Source of the DNA: Chelativorans multitrophicus
GTDB lineage: Bacteria; Pseudomonadota; Alphaproteobacteria; Rhizobiales; Rhizobiaceae
Direction of reading: 5' to 3'
DNA length: 64,000 nucleotides
Assembly (NCBI RefSeq): GCF_011317445.1
Contig: NZ_JAAAPL010000004.1
Coordinates: 1 to 64,000, forward strand
Part shown: positions 2-23,486 of the stretch, in pieces
Position numbering within the stretch: position 1 is the stretch's first letter
Layout of the letters: the number at the start of each line of letters is the position of its first letter
Notes under the pieces: generated by a model
Database searches by the model: none
What the model saw: the letters and a program-made list of their open reading frames with translations, nothing else
Told to the model about the DNA's origin: nothing
Made by a program: the position numbers and the translations under genes

Positions 2-463
2 GGCGGGGCAGCCGCCCTCTCTGGTGGCGCGGCCGTCGCACGTGGAGGAGCCGCCGCCGCAGGCGGCGCCGCGACGGCCTACTCGCTCGGCTCGGCCGGA
101 CAAAGTGGAGCAGCCGGCGTCGCATCTGGCCTCGGCGGCGTCGCCCGCGCCGGCGGCAGCGCCACGATGGCACCCGTGAAGCGCGCAGTATCCCGCGCCT
201 CGGAGTCCATGCGCTCGTCCTACGCCGCCGGCGGTCGGTCCGCGGCGGCCATGACCGGCGGCAGTTCCTCGATGGGAACGATCGGCGGTGAGCCCGAGGC
301 TGCCGCTTCCTCGACCACGGGAGGTCCGCCCGCCTGGGCCCAGCGCATGCGCCGCAGCCAGACGATGAGCCATGGGGTCTCCGCCGCCGCCCATGCCGTC
401 CGTTCCGGCGATAGCCACGGCGGCGGTGCTTCCATCAGCCTTTCGCAGAGTGACCGCACATGA
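2..463 (+). CDS. trbL: TrbL, conjugative transfer membrane protein (C-terminal part)
   Basis: Only the last 153 codons are present; the 5' part lies before the window. The visible part is the low-complexity tail rich in Gly, Ala and Ser that follows the membrane domain of TrbL/VirB6-type proteins in trb-type IV secretion systems. TrbL is an inner-membrane channel component for DNA transfer. The stop codon overlaps the trbF start by 4 bases (ATGA), and trbF, trbG and trbI follow in the standard trb order, which is the main support for the name. The tail alone is too biased in composition to identify the protein. Confidence 0.8.
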   Translation, partial: GGAAALSGGAAVARGGAAAAGGAATAYSLGSAGQSGAAGVASGLGGVARAGGSATMAPVKRAVSRASESMRSSYAAGGRSAAAMTGGSSSMGTIGGEPEAAASSTTGGPPAWAQRMRRSQTMSHGVSAAAHAVRSGDSHGGGASISLSQSDRT

Positions 464-1149
464 ACATCTTCAAGCGACCGATGACCCGCTACGGCAAGAC
501 GCCGGAACCGGAAACCCCTTATCAACGCGCCGGCCAGGCATGGGACGACCGCATCGGCTCTGCCCGCGTGCAGGCCCGCAACTGGCGCTACATGGCCTTT
601 GGCTGCCTGATTCTGTCAGCGGGATTCGCCTCGGCTCTGGTCTGGCAGTCGGCACGCGGGACAGTGGTGCCCTGGGTGGTCGAGATCGACAGCCGGGGAG
701 AGGCCCGTGCGGTGGAACCCGCGGTCGCCGACTATCGCCCCAACGACCCCCAGATCGCCTTCCACCTTGCCCGATTCATCGAGCAGGTTCGCGGCCTGCC
801 TGCCGATCCCATCGTCGTGCGGCAAAATTGGCTGCGCGCCTACGACTTCACGACCGACCGCGGCGCGGTCGCGCTCAATGACTATGCCCGCGCCAATGAT
901 CCGTTCACCCGTGTCGGCCGTCAGCAGATCAGTGTCGAGGTATCCAGCGTCATCCGCGCTTCACCGGATTCGTTCCGCGTCGCGTGGACGGAGCGCCGCT
1001 TCGAGAACGGCCAGCTCGCCGGCACCGAACGATGGACCGCGATCCTGACCATCGCGATCCAGGCGCCGCGGGATGCCGAGCGTCTGCGGCGCAATCCCTT
1101 GGGAGTCTACGTCAATGCAATCAACTGGTCTCGGGAGCTGGGGCAATGA
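460..1149 (+). CDS. trbF: TrbF, VirB8-like conjugative transfer protein
   Basis: The 229-residue protein has a short cytoplasmic N-terminus (residues 1-42), one membrane segment (about 45-63) and a periplasmic VirB8/TrbF domain. The family bridges the inner-membrane and core parts of the type IV secretion channel. Sequence such as VPWVVEID after the membrane helix and the NPLGVYVNAINWSREL end are characteristic of TrbF. It overlaps trbL upstream and trbG downstream by 4 bases each, so translation is probably coupled along the operon. Length is normal for TrbF. Confidence 0.93.
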   Translation: MNIFKRPMTRYGKTPEPETPYQRAGQAWDDRIGSARVQARNWRYMAFGCLILSAGFASALVWQSARGTVVPWVVEIDSRGEARAVEPAVADYRPNDPQIAFHLARFIEQVRGLPADPIVVRQNWLRAYDFTTDRGAVALNDYARANDPFTRVGRQQISVEVSSVIRASPDSFRVAWTERRFENGQLAGTERWTAILTIAIQAPRDAERLRRNPLGVYVNAINWSRELGQ

Positions 1150-2132
1150 ACGATTCGACCATACTCGCGCATGGGCGCAAGGCCGTCCGCGCCAGTATCC
1201 TCCTCGCAGCGCTGGCATCGGCCACCGCGCTTACCGGCTGCGCAACGGCGCCGCGACCGCCGCACATCACCTACGATGCCGACGTGCCCCCATTGCCCGT
1301 GGTGCCCGCCGCCGTCACCGACGAGACGCCCCGCCCAATCCACGTCCCGCCCGCCTGGTCACCGGCGACGGGCGGGACAGCCGCCTCGACGCCGACGGCC
1401 CGCGTCGAAAACGCCAATCTCGCCGCACGTGTCGAGCCTCGGCGTGAAGGCTACTACAATGCGATCCAGATTTATCCGTGGAGCGAAGGCGCGCTCTATC
1501 AGGTCTACGCGGCTCCCGGCCAGATCACCACCATCGCGCTGGAGCCCGGCGAGAGCCTGACCGGCGCCGGTCCGATCGCGGCGGGCGACACGGCGCGCTG
1601 GATAATTGGGGATACGGAAAGCGGCTCTGGCCCAAACCGCCGCGTGCATGTTCTGGTCAAGCCGACCCGGCCTGACATCACCACGAACCTTGTCGTCAGC
1701 ACGGACCGACGCGTTTACCTGATCGAATTGCGCTCCGGCGAAAATCCCTACATGCCGGCAGTCGCCTGGGCCTATCCCACACCTCCGGCCTCGCAACGCC
1801 AGACCGCTCCCGCCGCACCGATCATCCCGGCTGTTGCGTCGCGCAACTACCGCTACGGCCTCACCGGCGATGCACCTCCGTGGCGTCCGATCTCGGTCTA
1901 TGACGACGGCCGGAGGGTCTATATAGAGTTCCCGCGCGGCATCGTGCAGGGCGAGATGCCGCCGATCTTCGTCATCGGCTCGGACGGTCAGCCAGAAATC
2001 GTCAATAGCCGCGTCCACAACAACATCCTGATCGTGGATCGCCTTTTCGGGGCGGCCGAACTTCGGCTTGGCAGCGGCAATCGCCAGCAAATCGTGCGGA
2101 TCGTCAGGACTGACGGGAGGCCGACGACATGA
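1146..2132 (+). CDS. trbG: TrbG, VirB9-like lipoprotein of the conjugation channel
   Basis: The 328-residue protein starts at the ATG overlapping the trbF stop. It has an N-terminal signal with a lipobox (ATALTGC, Cys at about residue 32), so it is probably lipidated and attached to the outer membrane. The rest matches the VirB9/TrbG/CagX fold: a middle part with VKPTRPDITTNLVVSTDRR and a C-terminal part with PRGIVQGEMPPIFVIGSDG. VirB9-type proteins form the outer core of the channel with VirB7 and VirB10 homologues. The stop overlaps the trbI start (ATGA). A longer reading frame upstream of this ATG exists but overlaps trbF and is not needed. Confidence 0.92.
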   Translation: MNDSTILAHGRKAVRASILLAALASATALTGCATAPRPPHITYDADVPPLPVVPAAVTDETPRPIHVPPAWSPATGGTAASTPTARVENANLAARVEPRREGYYNAIQIYPWSEGALYQVYAAPGQITTIALEPGESLTGAGPIAAGDTARWIIGDTESGSGPNRRVHVLVKPTRPDITTNLVVSTDRRVYLIELRSGENPYMPAVAWAYPTPPASQRQTAPAAPIIPAVASRNYRYGLTGDAPPWRPISVYDDGRRVYIEFPRGIVQGEMPPIFVIGSDGQPEIVNSRVHNNILIVDRLFGAAELRLGSGNRQQIVRIVRTDGRPTT

Positions 2133-3295
2133 CCGCCAACGAGACCGGAAAGGGAGAGGGGATCGGCGCGGCCGACACGGCAACGACCATGCGGCTGCGG
2201 GCGGAGGCGCCAAGCGTCACCCGCGTCTCGCGCAAGGTGCTGACCGGGCTCGGCCTCATTGCCGGCCTCGGCATCGGCGGTGCGCTGATCTATGCGCTCC
2301 AGACCGCCGATCGGCAGCGGCAAGGCGAGGAGCTGTTCACCACCGACCGCCGCCAAACGGCCGATGGTTTGCAGGGGCTGCCGTCCGACTACAGCGGCAT
2401 CCCACAATTGGGACCACCACTTCCGGGCGATCTGGGAGGACCGATCGTGCGCTCCCGTGAGGAAGGCCGGCCCATTCCGGTAGAGACCATGCCGATGCCG
2501 CAGGCTGACCCGGAGGAGCAGCGGCGGCTTGCGGAGATGGAGGCCGCACGCACCAGCCAGCTCTTTTTTCAGACCCGCTCGGACACCAGCTCCGGCCTGC
2601 CATCCTTCCAGCCGAACTTCGGCGGCGCGACTAGCCCGACAGGTTCCGGGAGCCAGGACAGGCATCTGACCTTCCTCAACGCCGAGGTCGACCGGCGAAC
2701 GGTGGCGCCGGATCGCGTCGCTGCACCAGCCTCGCCCTACGTTCTTCAGGCCGGATCGGTGATCCCGGCGGCCCTCATCACCGGCATTCGATCGGACCTG
2801 CCTGGGCAGATCACAGCACAGGTCACCCAACACGTCTACGACTCCCCCACCGGAAGCCTTGTCCTGATTCCGCAGGGGACCCGGATCATCGGGGAGTACG
2901 ACGCCGGTGTCACATTCGGTCAGCGCCGGATTTTGCTGGTGTGGAATCGCCTGATCTTCCCGAACGGACGCTCCATCGTCCTCGAAAGGCAGCCGGGCGT
3001 CGATACCCAGGGCTATGCGGGCCTCGAAGATCAGGTCGACTATCATTGGTGGGACCTGGCCAAGGCCGCTGGTCTTTCAACGCTGCTTGCGATCGGCACA
3101 AACATGGCCATGAGCGACGAGGACAGGCTTATCCAGGCGATCCGCCGGGGCGCTGGCGACACGGTCAACGACGCGGGCCAGCAGATCATCCAGCGACAAT
3201 TGCAGGTCGCCCCGACCCTCACAATCCGTCCGGGGTTCCCGATGCGCGTCGTCGTTACTCGCGACCTCGTTCTCGAGCCCTACGCCGCACACTGA
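2129..3295 (+). CDS. trbI: TrbI, VirB10-like channel protein
   Basis: The 388-residue protein has a cytoplasmic N-terminus, a single membrane helix at about residues 35-58 and a Pro-rich periplasmic linker. The C-terminal VirB10/TrbI beta-barrel domain includes LIPQGTRIIGEYD and an end reading VVVTRDLVLEPY. VirB10 homologues span both membranes and gate the type IV secretion channel in response to the ATPases. It is the last recognisable trb gene. The next gene, DUF2274, starts 43 bases later. The length is somewhat short for the family, but the conserved C-terminal region is complete. Confidence 0.93.
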   Translation: MTANETGKGEGIGAADTATTMRLRAEAPSVTRVSRKVLTGLGLIAGLGIGGALIYALQTADRQRQGEELFTTDRRQTADGLQGLPSDYSGIPQLGPPLPGDLGGPIVRSREEGRPIPVETMPMPQADPEEQRRLAEMEAARTSQLFFQTRSDTSSGLPSFQPNFGGATSPTGSGSQDRHLTFLNAEVDRRTVAPDRVAAPASPYVLQAGSVIPAALITGIRSDLPGQITAQVTQHVYDSPTGSLVLIPQGTRIIGEYDAGVTFGQRRILLVWNRLIFPNGRSIVLERQPGVDTQGYAGLEDQVDYHWWDLAKAAGLSTLLAIGTNMAMSDEDRLIQAIRRGAGDTVNDAGQQIIQRQLQVAPTLTIRPGFPMRVVVTRDLVLEPYAAH

Positions 3296-3614: not shown

Positions 3615-3645
3615 GCGCATCGAACCTGTTTCCCGAGGGCCTCGG

Positions 3646-4671: not shown

Positions 4672-4985
4672 GCGGTTGCCTCCGTTTTTGACGCAGATCC
4701 GCCAAACGGCCGCCACAGCAAAGGGAGGTCAGCTTTCGACACGCGCTCGGGAGGATTGTCCGCAAAGCTATTCGCACTCGCACGGAGCGAGCTTCGACGA
4801 TCGCCTTCATTCAGCCGGTGCTGGAACCTGTCGAGCGGTTTCCGCCACATCGCTAAGCAGGTTAAGATTCGGCGCGCGACAAAATCTTGATCTGGATTAA
4901 AGACTTACGAGAGAGAAACATCGACTTGTTGGAGCAAGCTTCGGCAGCCGAGCGCTTGGGGATTGCTGCTTAGAAGGAGGGTTTG
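4672..4985. other. Intergenic region between LysR and sigma factor genes
   Basis: No convincing gene is visible in these 314 bases. The stretch should contain the divergent promoters of the LysR gene (leftward) and the sigma factor gene (rightward). Its one clear signal is an FNR/FixK-type dyad at 4887-4900. It marks the change from conjugation genes to cargo. Confidence 0.6.
4887..4900 (+). promoter_or_regulatory. FNR/FixK-type box upstream of sigma factor gene
   Basis: TTGATCTGGATTAA matches the TTGAT-N4-ATCAA dyad with one change. It ends 85 bases before the sigma factor start codon and is identical to the box at 13268. Confidence 0.7.
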
Positions 4986-5639
4986 GTGGCGGACGACGAA
5001 GATCAGGATATGCCAGAAGGGGCATGGGAAGGCGAGGCTTCAAAGCCTCACGACGCGGCAGTGCAGCGCGCATTGGTTGAGGCCCAGCAAACAATACTGC
5101 ATTTTCTTCAGAATCGTCTTCGCGACCGGGACGAGGCGGAGGAAGTGCTTCAACGTTTCTCCCTTCGCGCACTTGAGCGCGCCGCACAGCTCCGCGACGT
5201 TCGCACCGTGCGCGGTTGGCTAGGCAGGATACTCGCGACGACGATCGTTGACCATCAACGAGATGTGATCCGCCGACGCCAGCGCGAGGAGGAGCTGGGC
5301 CCCGAAACCCTGGAAAGCCACGAAGCCGAGCCCGACGCCGAGTTGGACGCGGCCATTTGCAACTGCCTCTATCGTTTGCTGCCGACGCTCAAGGCCGAAT
5401 ACGCCGACATCATCTGGCGCGCGGACATCCTGGGGGAGCCACGAGACCGGCTCGCGGCGAGCCTCGGCACGTCACTGAACAACGTCACCGTGCGGCTGCA
5501 CCGCGGGCGCCGTGCATTGCGCAAACGCCTTGAAGAGATGTGTCGGACGTGTCCGATACACGGATTCCTCGACTGCCATTGCGAGAAGGCGGAGAAATTT
5601 CGAGTCGAGCACGCGGCCGTCGCCGGTCGAGCGAAGTAA
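4986..5639 (+). CDS. ECF-type sigma-70 factor with Cys-rich tail
   Basis: The 217-residue protein has a sigma region 2 (about residues 28-85, including GWLGRILATTIVDHQRD) and a region 4 helix-turn-helix (about 130-180, ending RLHRGRRALRKRL). A tail follows with CRTCPIHGFLDCHC, four Cys and two His in 14 residues. Such tails in ECF factors can bind metal or sense redox state. GTG at 4986 was chosen because AAGGAGG lies 5 bases upstream; TTG at 4983 is too close. No anti-sigma gene is adjacent; a DMT-type transporter follows after 39 bases. An FNR-type box upstream suggests low-oxygen control. Targets are unknown. Confidence 0.8.
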   Translation: MADDEDQDMPEGAWEGEASKPHDAAVQRALVEAQQTILHFLQNRLRDRDEAEEVLQRFSLRALERAAQLRDVRTVRGWLGRILATTIVDHQRDVIRRRQREEELGPETLESHEAEPDAELDAAICNCLYRLLPTLKAEYADIIWRADILGEPRDRLAASLGTSLNNVTVRLHRGRRALRKRLEEMCRTCPIHGFLDCHCEKAEKFRVEHAAVAGRAK

Positions 5640-5678: not shown

Positions 5679-6572
5679 ATGATCACTCGCTTCACGCCCA
5701 TCCTCGTCTTGGTTGCCTTTCTCAACGCACTCTGCTTTCCGCTCATCACGGTCGGCCTGGAGCATGCGCCCCATATGACCTTCGCCGCGCTGCGGGCGAT
5801 CGTTGCCGGCATGTCGCTGGCACTTGTCGCTGCGCTCCTCAGACGACCGATCCCGATGGATCTCCGAATGTGGATGGCGCTCGGCGCCATGGGAATGGGA
5901 GCGACCGGCTTCGCATATTTCGGAATGTTTCACGCCGCAGAGTTCGTATCGCCAGGACTCGCGACAATTCTCACCAACACCCAGCCGTTGATCGCTGCGG
6001 TCCTAGCGTTCGCGTTCCTCTCCGAACGTCTACGACCGTCGCAGTATATTGGCCTGGGGATCGGCTTCTTGGGTATTGTCACGGTCGCCATGCCACGGTT
6101 GGGTATCGGGAATGGCCCCGGTGAGCTCTTCGCCTTGTCCTATCTAATCCTCGCCGCTTCCGGGCTCGCGGTCAGCAACGTTCTGATGAAGACGGTTCGC
6201 AGCCGAATCGATCCCCTCGTCGCGATGGCGGCACAGCTCCTTCTCGGCGCGGTGCCTCTCGCGATCCTGGCGCTGCTGACAGAGCAGCCTTCCGACATTC
6301 ATCTTTCGGCCGACTTTGTCATCGCGCTGACCCTGTTGGCGCTTCCCGGAACGGCCTTGTCATACTGGCTTTGGTTCTGGGTGCTCGACCGGATTTCCCT
6401 CAGCCATGCCAATGCGTTCACTTTCCTAACGCCTGTGCTGGCCCTCTTGCTCGGAGTTACGATGTTCGATGAACAGATCGGACCTCCGTTGATTTTGGGG
6501 CTGCTTCTTACGGGCATCGGCGTCGTGATCGTTGAACGAAACAGTCGGAGCCGAATCGCTCCGACTACGTAG
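5679..6572 (+). CDS. EamA/DMT-family transporter
   Basis: The 297-residue protein consists of about ten hydrophobic segments in two EamA repeats (roughly residues 1-135 and 145-285), the layout of drug/metabolite transporters in the inner membrane. The substrate cannot be read from sequence; family members export amino acids, nucleosides or small organics. It lies 39 bases after the sigma factor gene and could be co-transcribed with it. It is convergent with the Crp/Fnr gene, whose stop lies 31 bases away. A 9-bp perfect hairpin spans the 3' end of the gene. Confidence 0.85.
   Translation: MITRFTPILVLVAFLNALCFPLITVGLEHAPHMTFAALRAIVAGMSLALVAALLRRPIPMDLRMWMALGAMGMGATGFAYFGMFHAAEFVSPGLATILTNTQPLIAAVLAFAFLSERLRPSQYIGLGIGFLGIVTVAMPRLGIGNGPGELFALSYLILAASGLAVSNVLMKTVRSRIDPLVAMAAQLLLGAVPLAILALLTEQPSDIHLSADFVIALTLLALPGTALSYWLWFWVLDRISLSHANAFTFLTPVLALLLGVTMFDEQIGPPLILGLLLTGIGVVIVERNSRSRIAPTT
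6543..6566. terminator. Hairpin at convergent gene ends
   Basis: A perfect 9-bp stem (AGTCGGAGC with GCTCCGACT, 6-base loop) lies at the end of the transporter gene, facing the end of the Crp/Fnr gene. There is no T-run, so a terminator role is only plausible. Confidence 0.4.
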
Positions 6573-6603
6573 TTCATCTCTCATGCCGAACAGGTGCCGC
6601 CAT

Positions 6604-7515
6604 TCAGACCGATCGTCGCTGAAACCACGACATGGCAGTCTGCGGATCGACGCCGGCGACCTCTATGAGCCGATCCGGGTCCAGTATCCGAAGCCTCCTA
6701 TAGTGGAAATGCACGATCTTCTCCTTGCGCAGCGTGGCGAGCACGCGGTTCACATGAACGAAGGTCAGGCCCGTCGCGTCCCCGATTTGCTCTTGGGTGA
6801 GAGGGATCGCCATCTCCTCAATGCGGTCGCCCGGCCATTGAGCGCGATACCGCGTAAACAACTCCAGCAATAGATGCGCCACGCGCTCGCGGGCCGTCCG
6901 GCGTCCGATGCTGGTCATATGGTCGTAGGCCATTGATGTGTCGCGCGCCAACGCGCTCGCCAGCCGCATGCTCATCTCCGGATCGTCCCGCGAGGCCGCT
7001 GACAGCACGGTGCTCGGAATGACGGAGACGACCACCTCGGTCAATGCCTGCGCGCTGTAGCTGACCTGGGCGCCCTTGGAGGTCGGCATCCCCATCACCG
7101 CCCCAGGCAGTGCGAAATGGACGATCTGCCGCCGGCCGTCCTCCAACAGCGTGTAGATCGCAACCCATCCGGACAGCAGGTTGAAGATTGCGGTGTTCGT
7201 CTCGCCTATACTGAACAGATCTCGGCCGGCCGCGATCTTGCGATCACCCTTGCGGTATCGCGGAAGCAGGCGATACGCATCTGTGGACGGCGGCAGACCC
7301 GTAGCCGGAGCCCAGCTCTGGCCGTCGTTTCCGTCGCCCCCGCGCTTTGGGCGCCTGCTCAACTCATCGAGCGGAAGGCCCGGAGGGCGTTCCGCTTCCC
7401 GTGTCACCGATCCTCGAAAAAATGGTCTGCTCCGTCCGCGTTCAAAATCGTCCCATTCGTCGCGGAAGAGCGACCGGGCTACCTCTGTTGATAAGGACGC
7501 TCGATCCCAGCTCAT
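6604..7515 (-). CDS. Crp/Fnr-family regulator without cysteines
   Basis: This 303-residue regulator has an extra N-terminal stretch of about 75 residues, a cyclic-nucleotide-binding-like domain (about 85-195) and a C-terminal winged helix-turn-helix (LTQEQIGDATGLTFVHVNRV). The start is fixed by GGAGGTG four bases before the ATG. It contains no cysteine, so it cannot carry the Fe-S cluster of classical FNR. Its recognition helix has H-V-N-R where FNR and FixK have the E-x-x-S-R contact motif, so it may not read the FNR-type boxes nearby. It is the only Crp/Fnr gene in the window and follows a CutF-like gene on the same strand. Confidence 0.9.
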   Translation of the reverse strand: MSWDRASLSTEVARSLFRDEWDDFERGRSRPFFRGSVTREAERPPGLPLDELSRRPKRGGDGNDGQSWAPATGLPPSTDAYRLLPRYRKGDRKIAAGRDLFSIGETNTAIFNLLSGWVAIYTLLEDGRRQIVHFALPGAVMGMPTSKGAQVSYSAQALTEVVVSVIPSTVLSAASRDDPEMSMRLASALARDTSMAYDHMTSIGRRTARERVAHLLLELFTRYRAQWPGDRIEEMAIPLTQEQIGDATGLTFVHVNRVLATLRKEKIVHFHYRRLRILDPDRLIEVAGVDPQTAMSWFQRRSV

Positions 7516-7599
7516 ATTACACCTCCGGGCGCATGGCCCGTTGCAGCGACTGCGATCGCAGCCAGCAAGTTGTCCTGAAGAAGAACCTCGCCGCGCCGA

Positions 7600-7660
7600 A
7601 GCGACGCCTCCGCCACGTCCGTGGCCGCTGCCACTCCCTCAGAGGGAGCGGGCACGCGAG
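7600..7660 (-). other. Two short hairpins between CutF-like gene and Crp/Fnr gene
   Basis: The spacer contains a GCCAC/GTGGC hairpin with a 4-base loop and a CTCCCT/AGGGAG hairpin with a 3-base loop. They could structure a leader in the message for the regulator. Their role is inferred. Confidence 0.35.
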
Positions 7661-7695
7661 CATATCGGCATGGTCAGTGCAGGCGAGGAAACGAC

Positions 7696-8043
7696 CTAGA
7701 CGAAGCTGGGTCGCGGGACCGGAGGGTCTCTGCTGAGGATGATCGTTCGGAGGCAGTCATCGCGGAGGCCAGGCACGGCTGACGCTTCGACCGACCTCCA
7801 GAGAAACTCGCCGCGATGCCCTGGCAGCGGTAGCTTGCAGGGTGCGCACGTCATGGTGCAGCACGATACTCGGGACGAGCAGTCGTTACCCGGAGTCGAT
7901 GCCGTGAGGACAACATCCGCCACAGCGTCGGGCTGGGTTATGGATTGAAGCGGAACGAACCTGGCTTCGTGCGCGGACGCCGGTTCCCCCTGCATGAGAA
8001 AGGAAACCGTGCAGACGACCAGCAATGCCAGAAACCTGAGCAT
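7696..8043 (-). CDS. CutF-like small exported protein, copy 2 (upstream of Crp/Fnr gene)
   Basis: The 115-residue product has a signal peptide (cut near ASA-HE, residue 25), a motif CCTMTCAPC that contains CxxxCxxC, and a Pro-rich end (DPPVPRP). The same three traits occur in the protein before the multicopper oxidase at 23.5 kb. They are also the hallmarks of CutF of the Rhodobacter capsulatus cutFOG operon, where a copper-binding leader protein controls translation of the next gene. Here the next gene on the strand, 180 bases on, is the Crp/Fnr regulator. A perfect FNR-type box lies 127 bases before the start. Homology is judged by motif only. Confidence 0.65.
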   Translation of the reverse strand: MLRFLALLVVCTVSFLMQGEPASAHEARFVPLQSITQPDAVADVVLTASTPGNDCSSRVSCCTMTCAPCKLPLPGHRGEFLWRSVEASAVPGLRDDCLRTIILSRDPPVPRPSFV

Positions 8044-8169
8044 CTGCCCAATCCGCTCCGTTGGCGACCCTGCGCTCCTTCACGCTTCATCCGACGGAGA
8101 GCCTACCCCATCGCATTGCACGCGCAAGACCACGCCGCTGCACTACACGATAATGCAACACGCGCCGCC

Positions 8170-8183
8170 TTGATCCAGATCAA
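8170..8183 (-). promoter_or_regulatory. Perfect FNR/FixK-type box upstream of CutF-like/Crp-Fnr unit
   Basis: TTGATCCAGATCAA is a perfect TTGAT-N4-ATCAA dyad. It ends 127 bases before the start of the leftward CutF-like gene and about 190 bases before the rightward NifX-like gene. Confidence 0.75.
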
Positions 8184-8287
8184 CCGTTGTTGCCAACGAC
8201 GGTCAGCGCCACCAAACCCTCGCCAGCCCCGCTCGCATGGCCTGCCGGGAGATCGCGAGGTCAACCGACGTGCCTTTGTGACCTCAC

Positions 8288-8301
8288 TTGATCGAGATTA
8301 A
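8288..8301 (+). promoter_or_regulatory. FNR/FixK-type box upstream of NifX-like gene
   Basis: TTGATCGAGATTAA, one change from the perfect dyad, lies 72 bases before the start of the NifX-like gene. Confidence 0.7.
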
Positions 8302-8373
8302 AGTGCGGCGCGACCGGGGCGATGATAGTGACAGTTCAATGACTAGTCCGACTGGCTCTTTCACGGCCCAGGA

Positions 8374-8721
8374 ATGGCATCGATAGCCTCACCCTCGTCT
8401 GATCGAAATCATAGCGTGGCCCTGCTCGTCGCCCGCGACCAACGTAGGTATGCTCTAAGCCCGTTTTTCGCCAAGAGCGATGGGCTCCTCGTAGTCGATC
8501 CCGTGGAGCGGCGTCGACGGTATCGCGCCAATGTTGCCCGAACGACCGAGTCCGCTTGCGACCTGATCCTTGCCAGTGGTGCAACTCGCCTCATTTGCGG
8601 CTACGTGGCTGTTCCCGACCGTGACAGGCTCCGGGCCGCTGGCATCGATGTCCGCCTCGGCTCCTGCGCGCGCACGGTCAACGACCTCGTCACCTCGTTC
8701 GAGACCTTGCCGGACGCGTGA
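8374..8721 (+). CDS. NifX/NafY-family Fe-Mo cluster-binding-like protein
   Basis: The 115-residue protein matches the dinitrogenase iron-molybdenum cofactor domain found in NifX, NafY and the NifB C-terminus. The end reads AAGIDVRLGSCARTVNDLV, with the single conserved Cys region and an earlier GATRLICGYV strand. Such domains hold metal clusters during nitrogenase assembly, but many family members occur in organisms without nitrogenase. No nif gene is visible in this window. An FNR-type box precedes it. The start codon has only a weak ribosome binding site (AGGA directly before ATG), so the N-terminus is uncertain. Confidence 0.7.
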   Translation: MASIASPSSDRNHSVALLVARDQRRYALSPFFAKSDGLLVVDPVERRRRYRANVARTTESACDLILASGATRLICGYVAVPDRDRLRAAGIDVRLGSCARTVNDLVTSFETLPDA

Positions 8722-8734
8722 GGCCGCAGGCTAC

Positions 8735-8766
8735 CAAAAAAGAAGGAGGCGCCGTGCAGCGCCTCC
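8735..8766 (-). terminator. Rho-independent terminator of the first DUF305 gene
   Basis: Read on the minus strand, an 8-bp GGAGGCGC/GCGCCTCC stem with a 6-base loop is followed by TTCTTTTTT. It lies 20 bases past the DUF305 stop codon. Confidence 0.8.
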
Positions 8767-8786
8767 CATTCTCCATGCAATAACGC

Positions 8787-9191
8787 CTACTGGGGAGCGT
8801 TCGCGCGGAGCCATTCCTCCAACTGCGCGATCTCGGCTTCCTGGGCTGAGATCACGTCTTCCGCAAGCGCGCGGATCTCCGGATCGGAACCGTGCTCAAG
8901 AACGACGCGCGCCATGTCGATGGCGGCCTGATGGTGCGGGATCATGCCGCGGGCGAAATCCACGTCCGGGTTGCCGCTATAGTCCATGGTCGACATCGCC
9001 GCGTGCATCGTTTCCATGGCATCGACGTAGCCGCGAACCGCCGGATCATCATCGGGCGACACGGAAGTCTCGCCGGCGGCTGGTCCGCCGTGCATCGCGC
9101 CGTGGTCGGCCTGCGACCATGCTGGAATCGAAGCCGCAAAGCCGAGACCAGCCGCCACGACCGACGTAATCATAAGTTTCTGCATTTTCAT
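8787..9191 (-). CDS. DUF305 exported protein, copy 1
   Basis: The 134-residue protein has a signal peptide (cut near AWS-QA, about residue 26), a His/Met-bearing linker and a four-helix DUF305 domain with the family signature [17 protein letters not shown]305 proteins are periplasmic, ferritin-like bundles linked to metal, usually copper, handling. AAGGAACGTGCC precedes the ATG. The gene stands alone, with a strong terminator after it and an FNR-type box before it. It is very similar to the copy at 39319 (shared [18 protein letters not shown] and [14 protein letters not shown]), so the two probably arose by duplication within the island. Confidence 0.9.
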
Positions 9192-9288
9192 GGCACGTTC
9201 CTTTCAGTGTGGTTTTTCCCGACAGGTCTCGCGCCGGATTTTCGGCACAGTCTGCGAGATCAGTCTCCACGTCGATCCGGTCGACTCT

Positions 9289-9302
9289 TTAACCGAGATC
9301 AA
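9289..9302 (-). promoter_or_regulatory. FNR/FixK-type box upstream of DUF305 copy 1
   Basis: TTGATCTCGGTTAA on the minus strand lies 98 bases before the DUF305 start codon. Confidence 0.65.
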
Positions 9303-12733: not shown

Positions 12734-13177
12734 CTATTCGCCGCGGTCAGACAGCCACGCTCGCATTGCGTCGATCTCGGCCTGCTGAGCGTCGATGATC
12801 TCCTGCGCCCATTGGCGGCTTTGCTCGTCCTCACCGAACTCGAGAGCCGCTCGGGCCATGTCGATCGCGGCCTGGTGATGCGCGATCATGCCCTTGACGA
12901 ACGCGACGTCGGCGTTCTCTTCCTGCATCGCCTCCATCATGGGCGCGTGCATGCCCATCATCGCCCCCATATAGGCTCGCGAGGCTTCTGGCATCGTCGC
13001 CATGCGCTCCGCCATCATGCCTTCCATCATCTGCATCATGGGTCCCGATTGCTGAACGGGAGCGGACTCGGCGTGCTCACCATTCCCGTCCGGGTGATGC
13101 GGATCGGTTTGTGCCATCACGCCCATCGGAAGGATGGCTAGCCCAGCGACGAGGGCGATTCGTCCAAAGAGTTGCAT
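12734..13177 (-). CDS. DUF305 exported protein, copy 2
   Basis: The 147-residue product has a signal peptide (cut near VMA-QT, about residue 21), a very Met-rich segment (MMQMMEGMMAERMATM) and a DUF305 domain with [15 protein letters not shown]. The Met-rich part suggests copper(I) binding in the periplasm. GGGGATGTCGCA precedes ATG 13177; the longer frame extending to 13384 lacks a signal peptide and was rejected. It heads a two-gene unit with the exported protein at 12221. An FNR-type box lies 91 bases upstream, shared with the divergent carbamate kinase gene. Confidence 0.88.
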   Translation of the reverse strand: MQLFGRIALVAGLAILPMGVMAQTDPHHPDGNGEHAESAPVQQSGPMMQMMEGMMAERMATMPEASRAYMGAMMGMHAPMMEAMQEENADVAFVKGMIAHHQAAIDMARAALEFGEDEQSRQWAQEIIDAQQAEIDAMRAWLSDRGE

Positions 13178-13267
13178 TGCGACATCCCCTTTTTCGCGCG
13201 CCTCCCACGAAATGTTCAGAGAGAAGCACGTCATCCCGAAAACTAGCGGCCGTCGTCGTGCCAAGAC

Positions 13268-13281
13268 TTGATCTGGATTAA
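13268..13281. promoter_or_regulatory. FNR/FixK-type box between DUF305 copy 2 and carbamate kinase
   Basis: TTGATCTGGATTAA, identical to the box at 4887, lies 90 bases from the leftward DUF305 start and 148 bases from the rightward arcC start. It could serve either or both. Confidence 0.7.
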
Positions 13282-13429
13282 AGAACACGCACTCGCTGCG
13301 ATCGAGACTTTCAGTCCAGCAATATGCAGTTCCGGACGGCCCCCGAGATGGGGAGAACGATCGAGTTCGGTCCGCCTTTCGCACCAGGCGCGGTGCGCGG
13401 CGGCATGGTTTCAGGGATGGGAGCGATAC

Positions 13430-14909: not shown

Positions 14910-14995
14910 AGATTCGATGCCGGGATGGGGCGAGGTTCCTGACTGAAGTAACATGCTTTCGCACCATGGCCGCGACCAGATCAAGGACAGTCCTG

Positions 14996-17107
14996 ATGAG
15001 TTCACCCCATTCCCACCACGGCCATCAGAACCATCAGACCCACGCGACCGGGCATAGAGGTGGCGACGATTACTATGGCGATCCCAAAATCGTAGCGGCT
15101 GCCGGCTCGAGCCATTCCGGACATGGCGGTCATGGCGGCCACGACCATGGTGCGATGGTCGCCGATTTCCGCCGCCGCTTCTGGGTCACGCTGGTCCTGA
15201 CGCCTCCGGTCCTGCTGCTCTCGCCGATGATCCAGCACTGGCTCGGCCTCGCCGAAGCGCTGGCCTTTCCCGGCGACCGCTACGTTCTCTTCGTGCTCTC
15301 GACCATCGCCTATCTCTACGGCGGCTGGCCGTTCCTGACCGGCTTCACCTCCGAGTTGCGCAAGCTCCAGCCCGGCATGATGACGCTGATCGCATTGGCG
15401 ATCTCGGCGGCGTACTTCTTTTCGGCCGCCGTCACCTTCGGTCTCCCCGGCCAGGAGTTCTACTGGGAGCTGGTGACGCTGATCGCCATCATGCTGCTGG
15501 GCCACTGGGTCGAGATGCGCTCGGTGATGGGCGCCTCGCGCGCCCTGGAAGAGCTCGTCCGACTGCTTCCCGACAGCGCGACGAGGATCGACGCGGACGG
15601 CACCACGCACGAGGTCGCGATCTCGGCGCTGCAGCCCGGCGACCGCGTGCTGGTGCGGCCGGGCGCCAAGGTGCCCGTCGACGGAGAGATCGTCGAAGGA
15701 TCGTCGGGCTTCAACGAAGCGATGCTGACCGGGGAATCCCGGCCGGTCTCCAAGACCGTGGGCGCGACCGCCATCGGCGGCGCGATCAACGGCGCCAATG
15801 CCGTGACCATCCAGGTGACCGCCACCGGCGACGCCACCTATCTGGCGCAGGTCATCGACCTCGTCAAAAAGGCGCAGGCCACGCGATCCCGCACCCAGGA
15901 CCTCGCGAACCGCGCCGCCTCATGGCTGACCTACATCGCGCTTGTCGTCGGCTTCGGTACGCTCGTCGTCTGGTGGCTGGTGCTGGGTGCGCCGTTCGAA
16001 TTCGCGATGGAGCGCATGGTGACGGTGATGGTCGTCGCCTGTCCGCACGCGCTCGGCCTCGCCGTTCCGCTCGTCGTAGCGGTGAGCACGTCGCTGTCGG
16101 CCGGCAACGGCCTGCTGATCCGTGACCGCGCCGCCTTCGAGCGAGCGCGCAATCTCAACGCCGCCGTCTTCGACAAGACCGGCACGCTGACCGAGGGTCG
16201 CTTCGGGGTCAGCGACATCGTGCTGCTGGCCGGTGGCGACGAGAACGAGGAACTGGCCTATGCGGCCGCGGCCGAAAGCCAGTCCGAGCACCCCATCGCC
16301 CACGGCATCGTCGCCGAGGCGAAGGACCGGAGCCTGACCGTTCCCAGGGCGAGCGAGGTCAGCAACATCACCGGCGAAGGCATCGTGGCAAAGGTCGGCG
16401 GCAAGGATTTGCGCATCGTCAGCCCCGGTTATCTGGCACGGCAAGGCACGCCGGTCGGTCACGAGCGGCTCAAGCAGCTTGAATCGCAGGGCAAGACCGT
16501 GGTCGTCCTCGTGCGCGACGGCGAACCGCGTGCGCTCTTCGCGCTGGCCGACATCATCCGTCCGGAATCGAAGGAAGCCATCGCCGAACTCAAGTCCCTC
16601 GGGATCAGCTCCATCATGCTCACCGGCGATGCCGAGGGCGTTGCAAAGGCGGTATCGGAAGAACTCGGCATCACCGAGTATTTCGCCGAGGTGCTGCCCG
16701 ATCAGAAATCGCAGAAGATCGAGGAACTGCAAGCGCGCGGGCTCTCGGTCGCAATGGTCGGGGACGGGGTGAACGATGCCCCCGCGCTGGTGGTGGCCGA
16801 TCTCGGGATCGCCATCGGCGCGGGCACCGACGTGGCCGTCGAATCCGCCGATGTGGTGCTGGTCAGGAGCGACCCGCGCGACGTGGGCGCGATCCTTGGC
16901 CTCTCGCGCGCCACCTACCGCAAGATGGTGCAGAACCTGATCTGGGCGACGGGCTACAACGCGATCGCCATCCCGATGGCGGCCGGCATCACCTTCGGAA
17001 CCGGCTTCATGATGACGCCGGCCGTGGCCGCCGTCTTCATGTCGGCCAGCACCGTCATCGTCGCCATCAACGCCCAGTTCCTGCGCTCCTACAGGCGGCA
17101 CAAATGA
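14996..17107 (+). CDS. copB: CopB-type heavy-metal P-type ATPase
   Basis: This P1B-type ATPase of 703 residues has a His-rich N-terminus (HSHHGHQNHQTH and further GH repeats) in place of the Cys metal-binding domains. It has CPHALGL (about residue 349) in the membrane, DKTGTLTEG (about 393), SEHPIAHG and GDGVNDAPALVVADLG. The CPH motif and His-rich start mark the CopB subgroup, which exports copper (or silver) ions. AAGGA precedes ATG 14996; a start 30 bases earlier has no such signal. It overlaps the PRPP synthase gene by 4 bases, which ties copper export to the metabolic genes downstream. Confidence 0.92.
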   Translation: MSSPHSHHGHQNHQTHATGHRGGDDYYGDPKIVAAAGSSHSGHGGHGGHDHGAMVADFRRRFWVTLVLTPPVLLLSPMIQHWLGLAEALAFPGDRYVLFVLSTIAYLYGGWPFLTGFTSELRKLQPGMMTLIALAISAAYFFSAAVTFGLPGQEFYWELVTLIAIMLLGHWVEMRSVMGASRALEELVRLLPDSATRIDADGTTHEVAISALQPGDRVLVRPGAKVPVDGEIVEGSSGFNEAMLTGESRPVSKTVGATAIGGAINGANAVTIQVTATGDATYLAQVIDLVKKAQATRSRTQDLANRAASWLTYIALVVGFGTLVVWWLVLGAPFEFAMERMVTVMVVACPHALGLAVPLVVAVSTSLSAGNGLLIRDRAAFERARNLNAAVFDKTGTLTEGRFGVSDIVLLAGGDENEELAYAAAAESQSEHPIAHGIVAEAKDRSLTVPRASEVSNITGEGIVAKVGGKDLRIVSPGYLARQGTPVGHERLKQLESQGKTVVVLVRDGEPRALFALADIIRPESKEAIAELKSLGISSIMLTGDAEGVAKAVSEELGITEYFAEVLPDQKSQKIEELQARGLSVAMVGDGVNDAPALVVADLGIAIGAGTDVAVESADVVLVRSDPRDVGAILGLSRATYRKMVQNLIWATGYNAIAIPMAAGITFGTGFMMTPAVAAVFMSASTVIVAINAQFLRSYRRHK

Positions 17108-23472: not shown

Positions 23473-23486
23473 TTGATCTCCATCAA
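23473..23486 (+). promoter_or_regulatory. Perfect FNR/FixK-type box upstream of cutF-like gene
   Basis: TTGATCTCCATCAA, a perfect TTGAT-N4-ATCAA dyad, ends 46 bases before the GTG start of the CutF-like gene. This fits activation at about -41 with a very short leader, or repression. Confidence 0.75.

Follow-up and report, generated by a model that had tools for sequence, protein, structure and literature searches.

In the cutFOG operon of Rhodobacter capsulatus, copper controls the gene that follows cutF in cis through Cys and Pro motifs of CutF, and a stem-loop shields the Shine-Dalgarno (SD) sequence of this next gene (PMC9973294). The rules given there for CutF-like leaders comprise a length below 150 amino acids, a Pro-Pro pair (PP) within the last 15 residues, an N-terminal signal peptide, a following gene in the same orientation no more than 1000 nt away and homology to CutF-like clusters; the spacers of such genes are mostly under 100 nt (PMC9973294). 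In Bordetella pertussis, the DUF2946 leader CruR is separated from bfrG by a spacer of 162 bp, copper lowers bfrG expression through Rho, and the leader carries a RAPP motif with 45 residues between CXXC and RAPP and a constant Cys-Pro spacing (PMC9426467). The genes controlled by the CutF, CruR and CopL leaders characterized to date encode effectors, namely an oxidase, a transporter and the copper oxidase CopA (PMC9973294, PMC9426467). Regulators as leader targets are not without precedent, since NosR/NirR are named among the neighbours of CutF-like genes (PMC9973294) and sigma factor genes lie behind RAPP/RGPP arrest peptides (PMC12992588). Among the matches listed in literature searches of open-licence papers, none deals with such a leader before a Crp/Fnr gene, and neither "crp" nor "fnr" occurs in the main text of PMC9973294, which shows only neighbour classes of at least 20 cases.

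The window, a stretch of 64,000 nt from Chelativorans multitrophicus, contains a small leader gene followed on the same strand by a Crp/Fnr family gene (crp), with these features:

7696-8043, minus strand: CutF-like leader gene, 115 amino acids, product exported by appearance (open reading frame, dN/dS, relatives)
7837-7860, minus strand: CxxxCxxC codons of the leader, C62-x3-C66-x2-C69 (from sequence)
7708-7728, minus strand: DPPVPRP codons of the leader, a putative slow or arrest site (from sequence)
7516-7695, minus strand: leader-crp spacer, 180 nt (172-196 nt in core relatives)
7417-7572, minus strand: stretch around the crp start covered by a nucleotide model, conservation strongest at about -30 to +90
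7513-7526, minus strand: crp start signals, with SD GGAGG (7522-7526), TGTAAT and ATG (7513-7515), 6 nt from GGAGG to ATG
6604-7515, minus strand: Crp/Fnr family regulator gene crp (HTH_Crp_2, E 1.7e-16; cNMP_binding, E 9.3e-14)
8170-8183, plus strand: FNR/FixK-type box with the sequence TTGATCCAGATCAA, at 127-140 nt ahead of the leader start
8288-8301: second FNR-type box, one mismatch, upstream of the leader

The initial annotation, which had placed a small protein with CxxxCxxC and a DPPVPRP end ahead of a Crp/Fnr gene on the same strand, was right as to both open reading frames (ORFs).

Regarding the leader, the ORF starts with ATG and encodes a hydrophobic N-terminus followed by ASAHEA, and a C-terminus reading RDPPVPRPSFV. 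In terms of the published rules, its 115 residues lie below the limit of 150, P107-P108 fall within the last 15 residues and the Crp/Fnr gene follows on the same strand after 180 nt, inside the 1000 nt allowed (PMC9973294). The N-terminal hydrophobic run passes a simple hydropathy rule and has the look of a putative signal peptide. The likeness to CutF extends to small size, a Sec-type N-terminus (by appearance), a Cys metal motif, a Pro-rich C-terminus, a next gene on the same strand and an SD predicted to be paired; it is a likeness of features, the spacer of about 180 nt exceeds the mostly shorter than 100 nt of CutF-like genes, and the next gene encodes a transcription regulator whereas the target of CutF is a multicopper oxidase (PMC9973294). 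Profile searches returned no family for the window leader in Pfam (E up to 5), DUF2946 included, or in NCBIfam (E up to 0.1), whereas one leader of a related locus (L039 of G326b, FRPP end) gave a weak match to CopL (NF033807; E 1.2e-4, 22.7 bits) below the cut-off of 40.

Seven pairwise comparisons of leaders gave dN/dS values of 0.25, 0.53, 0.26, 0.26, 0.21, 0.30 and 0.26, a range (0.21-0.53) from which we judge that selection acts on the leader at the protein level. Because of these values and because relatives exist, the leader is not a chance ORF, and that reading was ruled out. In the core group, to which the window type belongs, the distances from the three Cys of CxxxCxxC to the Asp of DPP that follows are 43-44, 39-40 and 36-37 residues, with the last Cys missing in L008. 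Among outer relatives, G392, G513, G517 and G049 have Cys 43 and 38 residues before DPP, and G620, G1066 and G1109 have Cys at 49, 44, 42 and 38 residues, while the sequence between the Cys cluster and DPP has mostly diverged. Nascent chains come out of the ribosome at a distance of about 30-40 residues from the catalytic centre, and the Cys cluster would therefore emerge at about the time the Pro motif is decoded. A near-constant Cys-DPP distance despite a divergent protein is as expected of a nascent-chain sensor.

The regulator has both domains that define the Crp/Fnr superfamily, a cNMP-binding-like domain and HTH_Crp, with protein-like constraint beginning at about residue 76, and the closest solved structures by sequence are FixK2 (PDB 4i2o, E 2e-21) and an FNR type regulator (9qlt, E 3.3e-19). 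While it shares membership of Crp/Fnr with these proteins by sequence, it differs from them in being without the FNR cysteines: the window protein contains no Cys at all and hence no Fe-S ligands of the FNR kind. A CxxC..C arrangement near the N-terminus is present in eight outer relatives and absent in G647 and two rows of G326, and the Fe-S ligands were probably lost in the window lineage, judging from this distribution. FNR proteins have the recognition-helix motif E--SR, from which the TFVHVNR of the window regulator differs. The designation "low-oxygen regulator" in the initial annotation is accordingly unsupported for the protein, with zero Cys and a recognition helix unlike the FNR motif.

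Conservation of the gene pair was assessed at 32 separate crp places, of which 24 are genomic and 8 plasmid-borne, after dropping the leader hits L017 and L019 (stops inside), L018 (partial) and L002 and L003 (E about 0.5, stops inside). A leader stands in front of crp at 28 of the 32, at least five of these being near-copies (L049-L052 nearly duplicate L007, and G1109a and G1066 are identical at 3645 of 3651 bases). At 25 places (17 genomic, 8 plasmid-borne) the leader ends in DPP[VI]P[RK], and at three (G647 and, twice, G326) a small ORF rich in Cys and with FRPP at its end precedes crp. One place (L045 of G189) has a leader cut by a transposase region, and three (L036, L037 and L038) are leaderless, each an extra copy in a genome that has another pair. 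The conservation on which the initial annotation made its proposal depend is thus borne out, and the situation it held to be fatal, relatives having the Crp/Fnr gene alone, was encountered only in the three extra copies and the transposase-truncated case. In the latter, a transposase-like ORF occupies the expected start of the leader, and the DPPVPR-bearing tail of the leader is retained together with the spacer and crp.

A uniform leader rule (80-170 amino acids, hydrophobic N-terminus, PP near the end, ORF ending within 620 nt, two Cys 30-62 residues before PP), drawn up after the positives were known, accepted 28 of the 28 given leaders, nothing at L036-L038 and nothing at 12 control Crp/Fnr genes, which were hand-picked among the best 60 of 438 plasmid matches. 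Against plasmids, tblastn with the leader found 8 records (36-54% identity) and the Crp search 438, of which 8 reached at least 60% identity and the other 430 stayed below; the 8 are the same records that hold the leader, and among the best 60 of the 438 the next-ranked Crp has 38.9% identity. Leader and crp adjoin in all 8 of these records, five of which are near-identical (598-600 of 600 bases); seven are typed conjugative and one mobilizable. In genomes, the window's own included and with samples that overlap one another, the leader query matched 6 of 297 family members, 5 of 397 genomes of the order (G316 only as a partial hit with stops) and 2 of 385 of the class (G842 likewise), as well as 2 of 4 and 1 of 18 in smaller samples, and the Crp query matched 8 of 397 and 8 of 297, with 2 of 8, 1 of 28, 4 of 66 and 2 of 60 in other samples. 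In L005 and L008 the leader is unannotated yet present in the DNA. Since 28 of 32 places in the clade have a leader and none of the 12 other Crp/Fnr genes does, the pair is no accident, and chance is ruled out by the co-occurrence on plasmids as well.

The Cys-rich, exported-looking FRPP-end leaders were seen before relatives of the regulator at L032, L035 and L039, one of them weakly CopL-like. With DPP-type and FRPP/CopL-like leaders there is therefore more than one leader type before one regulator clade, and the sensor types seem exchangeable.

Much of the spacer sequence diverges in the core group. Around the crp start, every 30-nt step from 0 to +90 is 93-100% identical in five closer pairs and -60 to 0 is 70-100% identical, with flanks dropping at some points to 53-80%; for five pairs of more distant relatives, identity is 67-87% over -30 to +60 and only 33-70% in many of the steps to either side. 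Codons 2-25 of crp show 0-3 differences per 72 nt and a dS of 0-0.067, compared with 0.11-1.27 in the core of the same genes, although the contrast is slight in the closest pair, window and L004 (0.067 versus 0.113). The first 75 or so codons lack codon-position bias (15/14/15, 44/43/45 and 44/35/54 over the three positions; 15/2/92, for example, in the core). Low dS and absent codon-position bias together mean that the crp start is kept as nucleic acid, and by this comparison the region from about -30 to +90 is conserved at the nucleotide level, which would suit RNA and DNA alike. The nucleotide model, searched against the window and a set of loci of relatives, hits nothing there but core-clade crp starts (E up to 0.1), and the conserved block occurs once in the window; a repeated promoter was ruled out on both counts. 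A search of 6500-9300 against Rfam gave no known RNA family up to E 1.

A crp start at an inner codon was also set aside: the 12 rows listed share no inner start codon, and in 12 of 13 core rows the frame is open and preserved by the indels, so the conserved ATG/GTG was retained as the probable start. In 9 of 12 core rows this start reads AATGTGA, in which an ATG-TGA start-stop overlaps a GTG start; the window reads AATATGA (7513-7520), without the ATG-TGA overlap, and ATGTGA lies slightly upstream of the crp start in the outer relatives G049, G513 and G517. A natural variant is found on plasmid p2 of Rhizobium rosettiformans (L005), where leader and crp core are kept and the SD and start codon are lost at the conserved place (7466-7625 of that locus).

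RNAalifold predicts short hairpins at the crp start, including CGGGC-N5-GCCCG beside the SD, and pairing of GCC with the GGU of the SD. For 14 of its 36 pairs, those nearest the SD, 94.7% of cells can pair, versus 32-50% when the pairs are slid; this control is biased towards a structure derived from the consensus. Covariation is weak, its score being reached by 28 of 500 shuffles and the percentage paired by 71 of 500. An unusually stable leader RNA was ruled out by the overall fold (z -1.04).

The initial annotation had further pointed out that CCTCCGG in the leader's Pro codons is complementary to the ribosome binding site of the regulator, and this 7-nt complementarity is real: CCTCCGG at 7725-7719, in the codons for Pro-Pro-Val, is complementary to CCGGAGG at 7528-7522 over its whole length. 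By itself it carries less weight than the conservation of the small ORF and of the gene pair. In folds including 30, 90 and 180 nt of leader before the Asp codon, the pairing predicted for the window SD is 0.95, 0.94 and 0.61 in total and 0.89, 0.87 and 0.00 with the Pro codons alone; when a ribosome is set to occupy the Pro codons, SD pairing is 0.55, 0.88 and 0.62. High Pro-codon pairing is predicted also for L004 (30 and 90 nt), L006 (all three) and G272 (90 and 180 nt), and values of 0.99, 0.63 and 0.24 for G612. In G213, G1133 and G1106 the SD partner is mostly other leader sequence, and in G288, G151, L008 and L007 partners are mixed or local. As a null, the leader end of each row was recoded synonymously 60 times in the 30-nt fold: the observed Pro-codon pairing was reached by 8% of recodings for the window, 2% for L004 and L007 and 0% for L006 and G612, while the remaining eight rows gave 17-100%. 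SD pairing is also high among the recodings, with means of 0.57-0.90, and is therefore not very informative by itself. CCT is used for the first Pro in 9 of the 13 core rows and in 1 of 7 outer rows, compared with 17 of 133 Pro codons in core crp genes; the 13 core rows are interrelated and include the close relatives window/L004, L006/G1106 and G151/L008.

As a single general switch the 7-nt complementarity fails, CCTCC being absent from the Pro codons of L008, G151, G288 and G1133 and L005 having no SD. The specific CCTCCGG:CCGGAGG switch is thus suggestive only, predicted in the window and some relatives but not in all, and dependent on the stretch folded. As regards a stem-loop over the SD like that of CutF, most folds predict a paired SD; the partners differ, recodings pair likewise and covariation is weak.

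From sequence, folding models and analogy, we hold with slightly better than even confidence that the leader is a CutF-type nascent-chain leader gating the Crp/Fnr regulator by metal. Leader and crp would share a transcript, whose promoter probably lies close to the FNR-type boxes. During synthesis and export the Cys cluster would leave the ribosome tunnel about as the DPPVPR codons reach the catalytic centre, and copper or another thiophilic metal bound there would alter the dwell of the ribosome. This dwell would decide whether the spacer and start region, in which the ribosome site of the regulator is predicted to be paired, opens, and the opening would set the amount of Crp/Fnr protein made. 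By analogy we lean somewhat towards metal raising regulator synthesis, as with CutF, over lowering it, as with CruR. The conserved pair, the Cys-DPP spacing, the leader dN/dS and the low dS at the crp start speak for a CutF-type leader, as do the predicted SD pairing, the copper-related neighbours and the precedents of CutF and CruR (PMC9973294, PMC9426467). Against it stand the paired SD not being distinctive, Pro-codon pairing of 0.00 in the 180-nt fold, weak covariation, an SD predicted to stay paired (0.88 and 0.62) despite the ribosome in the two longer folds, the fold z of -1.04, terminator-like sites in the spacer, a spacer longer than most CutF-like ones, a leader without Pfam or NCBIfam match, and the retention of the leader in L005, which has lost SD and start.

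A CruR-like mode of action, in which the ribosome would stall on the Pro motif without metal and metal would relieve the stall, letting Rho or a terminator stop transcription in the spacer so that regulator synthesis falls, appears rather unlikely. The leader shares with CruR an exported Cys-motif protein, the near-constant Cys-Pro spacing that is a CruR hallmark and a long spacer (172-196 nt, resembling the 162 bp of cruR-bfrG), but its C-terminus has DPPVPR and not RAPP, and its last Cys is 36-38 residues from DPP instead of the 45 residues of CruR (PMC9426467). Three overlapping terminator-like sites at 7585-7606 in the spacer would suit termination, yet translation control fits better because the nucleotide conservation centres on the crp start codon.

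The same conservation, which spans third codon positions and continues past the start codon, and the lack of codon-position bias in the first 75 or so codons would also be compatible with a DNA element, that is, a separate promoter or operator from which crp is expressed independently of the leader, and TGTAAT resembles a -10 box by eye. We consider this improbable: a consensus scan found no sigma-70-type promoter in 6500-8800, the block has a good ribosome site and start codon, and the pair stays linked. Least probable is a plain small periplasmic metal-binding protein in one operon with the regulator and without cis control, which would account for the exported look, the Cys cluster and the copper-related neighbours but needs neither a near-constant Cys-Pro spacing, nor a conserved Pro end beside the stop, nor a nucleotide-conserved start of the next gene.

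Regarding transcription, the window has five FNR-type sites when up to one mismatch is allowed, where 0.88 would be expected, and 1 of 100 shuffles yields as many. In 11 of 12 related loci a box of this quality lies 65-142 nt ahead of the leader ORF (ORF starts chosen mechanically), six of them perfect; none was found before the leader ORF of L025. With such boxes before the operon, oxygen may thus enter at its transcription, via the window regulator or another Crp/Fnr protein. Further boxes lie at 4887-4900 and 13268-13281 (one mismatch each) and at 23473-23486 (perfect); the first precedes a sigma-like gene, the second is near carbamate kinase and CopM genes and the third stands at 23.5 kb. 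It is possible that the boxes across the island mark its regulon.

On one side of the pair lie the conjugation genes trbF, trbG and trbI (460-3295), and on the other a P-type ATPase gene (14966-17107; copper model TIGR01511, 584 bits, cut-off 397); CopM family genes at 8787-9191 and 12734-13384 both score above cut-off. A gene at 4983-5639 (plus strand) encodes an ECF-like sigma factor whose C-terminus bears a cluster of Cys, CRTCPIHGFLDCHCE, which we take to be reminiscent of the metal-sensing CorE sigma factors. Sigma-like genes also occur near the pair in L005, L006 and L008 and beside the leaderless crp of L038, there with the same tail. Divergent from the leader, an ORF of 115 amino acids (8374-8721, plus strand) has a sub-threshold match to Nitro_FeMo-Co (E 0.005).

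The gating of the regulator by a metal-sensing leader may form part of a mobile-island module, in which FNR/FixK-type boxes would set transcription at low oxygen, a nascent-chain metal sensor would gate regulator translation via an RNA element of about 120 nt straddling the start codon, and the sensor type would be exchanged (DPPVP, FRPP/CopL-like) while the regulator clade stays constant; in this full form we regard the proposal as tentative. Natural variants, comprising the lost start, the transposase-cut leader and the FRPP/CopL-like leaders, make the mechanism directly testable. Should a leader of this kind gate a transcription factor, an entire regulon would come under the influence of metal outside the cytoplasm, and in operons headed by FNR-type boxes a single short transcript would combine metal and oxygen signals.
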